This document shows positions 21,147 through 51,797 of a stretch of DNA of 64,000 nucleotides, piece after piece; position 1 is the stretch's first letter; the number at the start of each line of letters is the position of its first letter. Both the position numbers and the translations under genes were made by a program. Source of the stretch: an uncultured Mailhella sp. Lineage in GTDB: Bacteria; Desulfobacterota; Desulfovibrionia; Desulfovibrionales; Desulfovibrionaceae. The stretch spans positions 1-64,000 of the forward strand of contig CALUUX010000002.1 of assembly GCA_944324085.1 (NCBI GenBank), given 5' to 3'. The notes beneath the pieces were generated by a model. That model saw only the letters and a program-made list of their open reading frames with translations. It did no database searches and was not told the origin of the DNA.

Positions 21147-22664
21147 ATGGCCGTTTCCATAGCCATCGATCCCATCACCCGCATTGAAGGGCATCTCAAG
21201 GCGCGTCTGGAGGTTTCCGACGGCGTCGTGCGGGACGCCTGGCTCACCGGAGGCATGTTCCGAGGATTTGAAACCATACTTCTGGGCCGCGATCCCATGG
21301 ACGCTCCGCAGCTCGTGCAGCGCATTTGCGGCGTGTGTCCCGTCTCGCACGCGCTCGCTTCCTGCATGGCGCTCGAAGACGCGGCCGGCGTTACGCCCCC
21401 CCGCGAAGGCAGACTGCTGCGCAATCTCATGCAGGGCGCAAACTTTCTTCAATCGCACATCCTGAGCTTCTATCAGCTGTCCAGTCAGGACTTTTTCCAA
21501 GGGCCGTCCACGCCGCCCTTCTCCCCGCGTCAGAAAAAGCCCGATCTGCGCCTCGGGGAAGCCGCCACGCGCATGATGCTCGACCAGTATCTGGAATCGC
21601 TGGACATTCGCGCCATTTGTCATGAAATGGCGGCCATCTTCGGCGGACGCATGCCCCATGTGCACGGCATCGTTCCTGGCGGAACCTCGGCCCCCGCCAC
21701 GTCCAGACAAATACAGGAATTCCGTTCCCGCTTGAAAACGACGCGGGAATTCATCGAAAAACGCTATGTGCCGCTGCTTTATCTGCTTTCAGAAAGCTAC
21801 GCCGATCTGGCCCGCGTGGGCAAGGGATGGGCCACGGCCATGTGCATGGGCGTTTTTCCCCATCCGGACACGGGCGAAGAGGCCATACGAGCCGGCGTAT
21901 GGGCCGGAGGCAAGGAATACGAATTCGATCCCGCCAAAGTTATGGAAAACGTACGGTATTCCTGGTTCACGGCGTCGTCTGGCGGCAGTCCGTTCAGCGC
22001 GCCGACGCTCACCGTGGATCTGGACAAGGTCGGAGCCTACAGCTTTTCCAAGGCCGCGCGCTATAGCGGCATGCCCATGGAAGTGGGACCGCACGCTCGC
22101 ATGTGGGTAGGAAATATGGAACTCTCACCCATGGGAAGAGAACTGGCCCCCAAACATCTGGGCGTGCGGGCTCGAACCTTCCGCGAACTGGGAGAGACCT
22201 TTGCCTTTTCCATCATGGGAAGACATCTGGCCCGCGCCGAGGAAACCTGGTTCGTGGCCAAGGCCATGGAGGGCTGGCTCGACGCGCTCCGTCCTGGAGA
22301 AAATCCGCTCCAGCCCATGCCGAAACTGAAGGACGGAGAAGGCTATTCGCTCACCGAAGCTCCTCGCGGCTCGCTCATGCACTGTCTGCGCGTGGAAAAT
22401 GGCCGTCTGAGCTTCTATCAGGTTCTGCCCGCCACGCTGTGGAACGCTTCCCCCCGCGACGACGCCGGACTCCGCGGCCCCATGGAAGAAGCCCTCGTGG
22501 GACTGCCCGTGCCCGATGAAGACAGTCCGGTCAACGCGGGACGTCTGGTGCGCGCCTTCGATCCGTGACTGGGATGCGCCGTGCATGTCATGCACGCTGA
22601 AAAAACCGTCCCCGAGGCGTGTCCGACGTTTTCCTCTGACGCGTCCGAAGCGCGGACGTTCTGA
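21147..22664 (+). CDS. hysA: [NiFeSe] hydrogenase large subunit, selenocysteine-containing
   Basis: The catalytic subunit that oxidises or makes H2. The N-terminal ligand motif RICGVCPVSHA supplies Cys 61 and 64. At residue 474 the codon is UGA, and reading it as selenocysteine gives AFDP-U-LGC-AVH, the C-terminal ligand motif with Sec replacing the first cysteine (Cys at 477). The frame then runs 32 codons to a UGA at 22662-22664, leaving a 25-residue tail after the His that a maturation protease would remove. A conventional stop at 22566 would lose two essential ligands. A hairpin with a GUC loop begins 11 bases after the UGA. There is no signal peptide, as expected. Confidence 0.93.
22566..22602 (+). 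promoter_or_regulatory. In-frame UGA with bacterial SECIS-like hairpin in hysA
   Basis: After UGA (22566-22568) a 7-bp perfect stem CGTGCAT / ATGCACG encloses a GTC loop at 22587-22589, 18 bases past the UGA. Bacterial SECIS elements have an apical loop containing GU at this kind of spacing, which binds SelB. selA, selB, selC and selD are not in the window. Confidence 0.75.
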
Positions 22665-42575: not shown

Positions 42576-43028
42576 GCCATGCTTTTCCCGCGATTTCTAC
42601 GCGCCGCCTTCACTCGACAACGAGCGACGCTTTCCGCGGTCCATCTCACGACGCAGCCACACCTTCTCCGCGACGTCGCATTCCGCAGACCGACACACCC
42701 TCTTCTACGTCCTGAGACGCCTTCCGCGAAGCAAGGCAAAAACGACTTGTGGTTTTATAACCTATATTCTATACTCGACTCCATTCCACCGATTTCTCTA
42801 AATATTATTTGCGGTTGAAGGAGGAATTTCATGCGACGCTTCTTGAATTTTCACGCGCGCCGGCGGCTGGCCGACATCGGCCCGGCCCGCGCGTCGCATC
42901 CAGAAACGCCGCTCCCTCAGCTCCTTTCGAACGCAATCCTCACCGATAAACAAGAACCATTACGCGACAGCATGTCGGAAAGCGGTTTTCCGACCAGGCG
43001 TCGCGTCACCTTATCCAAGGAGACATCC
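42576..43028. other. Leader region of the exported UGA-containing gene
   Basis: Contains a good promoter (42747-42775). An ATG at 42831 with a strong AAGGAGG site is in frame with the gene, but would add 66 residues before the signal peptide. No terminator or known riboswitch was found in the leader. Confidence 0.5.
42747..42775 (+). promoter_or_regulatory. Sigma-70-like promoter
   Basis: TTGTGG at 42747-42752 and TATACT at 42770-42775 with a 17-base spacer, in an AT-rich stretch. Expected to drive the exported UGA-containing gene. Confidence 0.6.
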
Positions 43029-44492
43029 ATGAACACGCATCTGTGGTGGAAAGGCGCGAGTCTTGCGCTCGCCCTGTTGCTGCCGTCGGGAGCCATGGCG
43101 GCTTCTGAATCGGCGCTCATGCAGGCACCTGCCCGCAATGCGGCCATCATCGCCAAAGTCCCCGGCTTCAAGGCCGCCGACCTCGATCTTTACCTCGGCC
43201 AGCGTCGCATAAGCGAAGGCGTCGTCATACGCAAGAGCTTCATCCGCGACGGCAAAATCGTCATTCCTCCGGCCGGACTGTACTACAGCTCGCGCATCGC
43301 CAGCATCGGAACCATGACCAACATCGAAGTCATGCTTCTCGGCAAACGTTATTCGGAAGTGGACGAATCCTTTGAATATTTGGTGCTGAAAAACCGCACC
43401 ATGAAAAAAGGCGACTCCATCAACCTTCTGCCCGACGGCTCACGCGCGCTTCAGTTCGTCAATGGCAACGCGCATCCCTACGGCAACAGCGCCGGCTATT
43501 CCAGCCTGCGCATCATGAAGTCTTCCGGCAACTTCTACGGCACCAACTTCCAGGTGGCCGCCGATCCCACGCTGGTGGACGTGAACTCCGGCAAGTTCCA
43601 CGGACTCGGCCTGAGCGAAGGCAGACATCCCGTCACGGCTTCCACCGGCGAACCGCTTCAGCACAAGAGCTATTACGGCGCGTCCATCTATCCCAGCGGC
43701 AAGTCCTACCTCATCGTGGGCAAAACCTCGGCTAACGAAGTCGAAGTCAAGGAATTCGCCACCCCCAGCCTCACGGAAATCTGGCTGACGTCCGAACCCC
43801 GGGTTTCCGGCGCGTTCAAAGCCGGCGATACCGTCAAGGTAGGCTCCGCCACGGTAAAGATCCTCTCCGTGGGCAAGGATTCCGCCAAAATCTCCCTTAC
43901 GCAGAACGGCAAGGAAACCGTCAAGGAATTCAAGAATATTCTTGATCCTCACGCGCTGGACTATCTGCCCTCCAGCCCCGCGGAAAGAGCCAAATGGCAG
44001 CTTGCCTCCGCCGATGGCAAGGCTCGCGTGCAGGTGGCCATGCTTCATCCCAAAGGCGCGCTCACCGCGGACGGCAAAATCCGTCTGGACATGTTCAGCG
44101 GCATATTCAGCATTAAGAACCCTCAGCAGTGGCCGGGCGATCCTCGTTTCACGGTTCGCCCCGACACCTGAGCTTCCTGCAGCGAGCTGAACGAGATCAT
44201 CCTCGAAAACACTGAGGAAATTGTTCTCGACAGCGCCAGCAACGTGTTTGCTGGTCCGGAAAACTACTTCAAGATCGTTATCGACGACTTCGACGGAAAA
44301 ACCGTCAAAGCCTGGCATTTCGAAGACGCCGACGGCAACAAGAGCCCCAATCTGTCTTCCTTTGCCAAGGGCCACAACATTGACCTTCTGGCCAATCTGG
44401 AAAACAAAACCATCAGCCCCTTCGCGCTGAGAATGTCTCTGAACATGCTCTACAACGACCTTGAAAAACAGGGCATCGTCATGAGTCGCTAA
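43029..44492 (+). CDS. Exported protein of unknown family; candidate selenoprotein with in-frame UGA
   Basis: A Sec signal peptide (about residues 1-25, ending AMA) leads a predicted periplasmic protein. The UGA at 44169-44171 is codon 381. The same frame stays open for 106 more codons to TAA at 44490. Read as selenocysteine the junction is RPDT-U-ASC-SELNE, a UxxC redox-like motif. The downstream part has no ribosome-binding site or ATG of its own before 44433. The only terminator lies after the TAA. Hydrogenase hysA in this window implies selenocysteine decoding. Against it: no clear SECIS hairpin was found, so a nonsense mutation is the alternative. A start at 42831 is also possible. Confidence 0.6.
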
Positions 44493-44520: not shown

Positions 44521-44550
44521 AGCGGGGTTTCTCCGGAAACCCCGCTTTTC
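44521..44550 (+). terminator. Intrinsic terminator after the UGA-containing gene
   Basis: Perfect 11-bp stem AGCGGGGTTTC / GAAACCCCGCT with a TCCG loop, followed by TTTC. It lies 28 bases after the TAA at 44490-44492 and 349 bases after the in-frame UGA. Confidence 0.9.
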
Positions 44551-51650: not shown

Positions 51651-51720
51651 GTTCCCGAATCATGAAACGGCGCAAGCTGTTTCGCCAAAGCGCATAGAGC
51701 CGGTATGGACTTGGATGAAG

Positions 51721-51789
51721 AAACCGGGAGAGACCGCGTATGACGGAGCCGAAGGGGCCGCAAGAACTCTCAGGCAAAAGGACCGGTTT
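51721..51789 (+). ncRNA. Glycine riboswitch, aptamer 1
   Basis: P1 is AAACCGG / CCGGTTT. Conserved glycine-aptamer signatures are present: GGGAGAGACC, GAGCCGAAGGGGCCGCAA and ACTCTCAGGCAAAAGGA. Confidence 0.9.
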
Positions 51790-51797
51790 TGGACAAA

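Follow-up and report, generated by a model that had tools for sequence, protein, structure and literature searches.

The window analysed here, a stretch of 64,000 nucleotides from an uncultured Mailhella sp., carries on its forward strand a gene for a predicted exported protein whose frame contains a single UGA. The features of this locus, together with one from a hydrogenase gene in the same window, are as follows.

43017–43022, + strand: Shine-Dalgarno sequence AAGGAG, 6 nt 5' of the ATG at 43029, read from the sequence.
43029–44492, + strand: predicted selenoprotein gene for 487 amino acids including Sec381, from ATG 43029 to the stop codon TAA 44490–44492, based on the sequence and on 26 UGA-containing homologous genes.
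43029–43100, + strand: predicted N-terminal signal peptide with hydrophobic core ...ALALLLPSGAMA-A, based on the translation and kept in every homologue with an N-terminus.
44169–44171, + strand: putative Sec-UGA codon U381, opening the motif U-A-S-C; at the aligned position 25 other genes have UGA and the rest TGC/TGT (Cys).
44172–44489, + strand: C-terminal 106 residues, reachable only via the UGA, with conserved blocks and signs of purifying selection.
44186–44234, + strand: SECIS-like hairpin with apical loop GAAAACACT at 44205–44213, from folding; the inner stem-loop was also flagged in a separate stricter scan.
44521–44549, + strand: hairpin followed by TTTT, likely the terminator of the full-length frame, identified by eye.
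22566–22568, + strand: Sec-UGA of a NiFeSe hydrogenase large subunit, within DP-U-LGCAVH, an in-window sign of Sec decoding.

The UGA lies in the context RPDT-U-ASC. The first-pass annotation had described the frame as crossing the codon at DT-U-ASC and staying open for a further 106 sense codons, and both statements are borne out by the sequence and its translation, as is the position of the first in-frame ATG in the tail, at 44433. An additional in-frame start candidate is GTG 44244, which has no visible Shine-Dalgarno sequence. The claim that the protein is exported agrees with the signal peptide prediction. A terminator had been placed 28 nt past the TAA, and by eye a GC-rich hairpin with TTTT does begin there, the sole hairpin-plus-T terminator visible and located 3' of the TAA rather than of the UGA; a stricter scan did not list it. 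The tail of the window gene also contains two blocks that are conserved family-wide, GP..YF.VIDDFDG...AWH.E and NID.

Homologues were sought in 59 related genomes, and profile searches covered 347 genomes from the class and 395 from the phylum. An in-frame UGA occurs at one aligned U-x-x-C site in 26 genes, including that of the window, from Desulfovibrionales and other classes of the phylum. These genes share 31–91% identity, are spread over the phylum, and have one in-frame TGA each. Five belong to subfamily A (the window, G016, G007, G017 and G233, the last being Candidatus Bilophila faecipullorum), 11 to subfamily B (UATC/UASC), three to D and two to F; four from another class of the phylum form subfamily P (USTC), and a divergent gene in G427 reads UPQC. 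The two closest copies are from uncultured Mailhella, and the G016 copy is 91% identical to the window gene. The usual context of the motif is RP[DE][TVI][UC]xxC. Cys occupies the UGA site in two close single-domain homologues (G010 and G015, both CAEC) and in a tandem-duplicated form of ~970 residues, whose second half contains CGHC while the first half lacks a cysteine pair; the window genome itself carries one such long copy (G000:C3). Both Sec-type and Cys-type homologues at position 381, which the first-pass annotation had proposed to look for, were therefore found. A more distant paralogue, G398:C3:15553, retains just one of the cysteines, and no relatives were found on viral contigs. 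In a tree of the family the CAEC genes nest within the Sec genes, which points to a probable replacement of Sec by Cys in that lineage, although the order of the long deep branches is uncertain.

Substitution patterns indicate that the tail beyond the UGA is under purifying selection. Between the window gene and its G016 copy, changes at the first, second and third codon positions number 20/17/96 before the UGA and 4/3/31 after it, and dN/dS is 0.10 before and 0.07 after; against G007 the values are 0.09 and 0.07. Only these two close pairs were used for dN/dS, as dS is saturated in more distant ones. The conservation of the tail at the protein level elsewhere, and the dominance of third-position changes, confirm from comparative data that this is a real feature beyond chance. 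It had been left open that the UGA is a nonsense mutation. In that case a Cys codon would have decayed to TGA in a truncated gene or dying pseudogene. The failure to find selD and tRNA-Sec in the window assembly would fit such decay, but 25 other genes, drawn from several genera and classes, have the same UGA, selection acts on the tail as protein, and no homologue has a frameshift or second stop, which makes this explanation extremely improbable. Homologues ending at the UGA, or with tails broken by random stops or frameshifts, had been named as observations that would count against a selenoprotein; instead, frames continue through the UGA and tails have not decayed. We give equally little credence to the UGA as a true stop, after a functional 380-residue protein and before a separate downstream gene: GTG 44244 could begin an 82-residue product, but it lacks a visible Shine-Dalgarno sequence, the two parts form one continuous frame in Cys relatives, and conservation runs uninterrupted through the U/C-x-x-C between them.

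The RNA just past the UGA gives a further line of evidence. The bacterial SECIS model of PMC13188914 has a G in the first two loop positions, 16–37 nt after the UGA, a folding energy of ≤ −7.5 kcal/mol, and a loop of 9 nt at most. Earlier, no hairpin with a GU loop had been found at the right spacing. This is contradicted by the hairpin at 44186–44234, whose loop starts with G 33 nt past the UGA and whose energy is −18.6 kcal/mol, so that spacing, loop G and energy all lie within the model. The folding of this region, suggested in the same annotation, was assessed by permuting synonymous codons within each gene, which preserves protein and codon usage, and 0/100 such shuffles matched the window hairpin. 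For the 66-nt stretch right after the UGA, the mean z is −2.2 in Sec genes (−4.4 in the window gene) and about 0 in Cys genes, which have no significant hairpin; the excess folding signal of the Sec genes peaks at the UGA. Stem sequences differ among subfamilies A, B and D, which have in common the 33-nt spacing to a G-first loop, and in P genes the spacing is 32–34 nt. Loops of 12–14 nt in the B genes and in the G016 and G007 copies of A exceed the model's limit. A strict 3–9 nt loop limit accordingly detects hairpins in the window gene, the D genes and some N genes and misses these longer loops, and a scan by unconstrained minimum free energy windows overlooks the window hairpin. No hairpin fitting the model was seen in the G017 copy of A, though its UGA is conserved, and hairpins of N_G091 and several P genes were not clearly better than codon shuffles. 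A consensus RNA fold over all subfamilies jointly failed, since their stems are not in the same register; it revealed neither a common register nor compensatory changes, and per-gene codon shuffles were used instead. An Rfam search of the window returned no SECIS model match. Elsewhere in the window, at 51715–51795, there is a glycine riboswitch aptamer (Rfam RF00504).

That the window hydrogenase hints at Sec decoding, as had been argued, is upheld. The NiFe hydrogenase large subunit at 21148–22664 bears the near-terminal DP-U-LGCAVH of a NiFeSe hydrogenase, with a short hairpin of its own after the UGA that is better than 94/100 permutations. Gene callers would stop this subunit at 22568. 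Both SelA and SelB score above cut-off in the window genome, SelA being split in two pieces on two contigs. A lack of Sec machinery, which had been named as a point that would tell against the gene, was seen in part: selD and tRNA-Sec were not found in the window assembly (96% complete, 94 contigs), while selA and selB are present and all four genes occur in G016, the genome of the 91%-identical copy. In G007, tRNA-Sec was likewise not found. In both G016 and G007, selD shares a contig with a B-form gene; a single stretch lost from the window assembly could therefore account for several of the absences. We also considered selenium-free decoding of the UGA, with suppression or an altered genetic code yielding Trp or Cys. 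The frame by itself demands only readthrough, but TGA terminates genes in these genomes (the G016 copy is an example), SelA and SelB are present, hairpins at SECIS spacing occur in Sec genes only, and the site swaps with Cys and not with Trp; the chance that such decoding is at work seems very slight.

As had been reported, no family was recognised. None of 13 members tested gave a significant match in Pfam or NCBIfam, no model in the June 2026 NCBIfam release matched, and there was no sequence match in the PDB. A 2026 catalogue lists 119 prokaryotic selenoprotein families (PMC13188914, Table 1), among which no entry has a matching model or description, and no description of the family was found in open-licence papers. 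Judged by these models and descriptions, the family appears to be absent from the current catalogue of selenoproteins. The long form matched the S-layer duplication domain TIGR01567 at just 12.3 bits against a cut-off of 121.9 (E 0.077), with no shared motif, and this assignment was rejected. AlphaFold models from a 4-sequence input were poor (pLDDT 39 for the full length, 52 for the C-terminal half), and only residues ~258–302 resemble a small beta barrel. The [U/C]xxC motif is as in thioredoxin-fold oxidoreductases; Pfam and PDB sequence searches gave no thioredoxin-like match, and the AlphaFold models are too poor to judge fold.

Gene neighbourhoods differ among the family forms. No large neighbour is conserved beside the A forms, including that of the window, or beside the P forms. 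Genes of the B, D and F forms share a same-strand cluster with a molybdopterin (MoCo) enzyme, a 4Fe-4S protein, a cytochrome of b561 type, and a helix-hairpin-helix (HhH) protein that is small and exported. Two gene orders are seen (several genera, two families), namely HhH protein, selenoprotein, MoCo enzyme, iron-sulfur protein and cytochrome b, or the last three followed by the selenoprotein. Exceptions to this linkage are the D gene of G006 and contigs ending near the gene. The linked enzyme is a TAT-exported molybdopterin oxidoreductase (Pfam PF00384, PF01568, PF04879) that scores above no curated NCBIfam subfamily cut-off. Near a B operon, a protein that combines a tyrosine-recombinase-like part with a molybdate-binding Mop/TOBE domain (L044:10510-11508) is possibly a molybdate-responsive regulator of that operon. 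Near the B-form locus of G018, repeated reading frames of LPHPRGGVS type (L042:2600-4300) probably represent a CRISPR array.

The long Cys form always adjoins a YeiH-like transporter, usually an HhH protein, and often arylsulfotransferases; in G372 and G629 it lies beside a homologue (40–43%) of the same MoCo enzyme. A DUF1573 protein beside the long form has an in-frame TGA (NVTTSUSCTTT) and represents the already known DUF1573 selenoprotein, with a USC motif:

L086:2842-3520, − strand: DUF1573 selenoprotein, in-frame TGA.
L087:2891-3570, − strand: DUF1573 selenoprotein, in-frame TGA.
L054:2621-3390, − strand: DUF1573 selenoprotein, in-frame TGA.

Small exported proteins with C-terminal cysteines recur at these loci. 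The HhH proteins adjoining short forms all have C[NST]C at the very C-terminus, as do those adjoining long forms in all but one case, the second G629 copy, which ends ...SPSKC. These ComEA-like exported proteins ending Cys-x-Cys-COOH are exemplified by L041:3550-3840 and about 20 relatives, with stand-alone copies too (G015:C58, G016:C27). Directly upstream of all four P genes is another small exported protein, ending ...IAPDEGC. Such proteins (L099:8770-9129, L102:8482-8790 and equivalents) have GNC[NTD]IGG near the start and a low-complexity middle, and their family was not recognised. In the MoCo operon of G233:C6, which holds no family member, the position after the cytochrome belongs to a thioredoxin-like, exported WCVPC protein.

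Overall, these comparative data strongly support a selenoprotein reading of the window gene. The best explanation as a whole, which we hold with considerable confidence, is that it encodes an exported 487-residue selenoprotein, with Sec381 inserted through SelB and the hairpin, a periplasmic redox role, and membership, as founding example, of a new family in three forms. SelB, guided by the hairpin, would place selenocysteine at residue 381, and the mature periplasmic protein would then carry its U-A-S-C redox motif in the C-terminal part. The three forms would be a single-domain Sec protein, a single-domain Cys protein, and a tandem-duplicated Cys protein with the motif in its second half only. 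The selenol/thiol pair may undergo periplasmic selenylsulfide/disulfide exchange, such that the protein is likely a periplasmic seleno-thiol oxidoreductase with a redox partner. At the sister loci, the likely partner would be the small exported protein that has one or more cysteines at its C-terminus, with the membrane-bound molybdopterin oxidoreductase as the likely electron source or sink. The linked MoCo enzyme is absent from the window genome, where an HhH protein ending in CxC adjoins the long form, and so the window copy, if it shares this chemistry, may use another partner. Like the other A forms, it lacks conserved neighbours, and a mechanism based on the operon may fail to hold for it.

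The most serious competitor to the redox reading accepts Sec insertion but proposes no redox shuttle, with the U/CxxC instead binding metal, heme or substrate sulfur (as a carrier of persulfide/selenopersulfide, for instance when sulfur compounds are respired), or the protein assisting maturation of the MoCo enzyme. It would account for the arylsulfotransferases and YeiH-like transporter beside the long form, for hosts that are sulfate reducers, and for partners with a C-terminal CxC, but the thioredoxin-like protein in the same operon slot, seen at one locus only, fits thiol redox better. We regard it as rather unlikely, if worth keeping in view. Returning to a redox role, we would tentatively go a step further and picture a previously undescribed, selenium-dependent periplasmic relay, a possibility on which we place only slightly more weight. 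Here, an exported protein with a UxxC motif and a new fold would exchange electrons or sulfur with small exported carriers, by way of the Cys or Cys-x-Cys at the carriers' C-terminus, and feed the membrane-bound molybdopterin oxidoreductase; two unrelated kinds of carrier (HhH...CxC and ...IIAPDEGC) would act with this one selenoprotein family.

The catalogue would gain a well-supported selenoprotein family with many members, which gene callers end early at the UGA. The family directs attention to a specific periplasmic redox system of gut and environmental sulfate reducers, and because small partners ending in cysteines recur, its mechanism is open to direct experiment.

Among known systems, the bacterial UxxC thiol-disulfide selenoproteins (Sec-thioredoxin, Sec-DsbA/DsbG, TlpA-like) resemble this family in the U-x-x-C motif, the existence of Cys homologues, the hairpin SECIS past the UGA, and the fact that a thioredoxin-like protein fills the family's place in one MoCo operon. 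They differ in that no sequence similarity and no Trx/DsbA/TlpA Pfam match links them to it, and the present proteins are ~490 residues long, beta-rich by weak prediction, with a C-terminal motif. The DUF1573 (OS_HP2-like) selenoprotein is also exported and Sec-containing and adjoins the long Cys form (TTSUSC; L086, L087, L054), but is unrelated in sequence and already catalogued. The long form shares tandem duplication with the Methanosarcina S-layer duplication domain (TIGR01567), though the match is non-significant. With accessory redox proteins of complex-iron-sulfur molybdoenzymes of the PhsABC/PsrABC/TtrABC type, the sister genes share a place in operons with a TAT-exported MoCo subunit, a 4Fe-4S protein and a b-type cytochrome; the MoCo subunit linked to our family, however, lies above no curated NCBIfam cut-off, and we know of no accessory protein of this kind for those enzymes.
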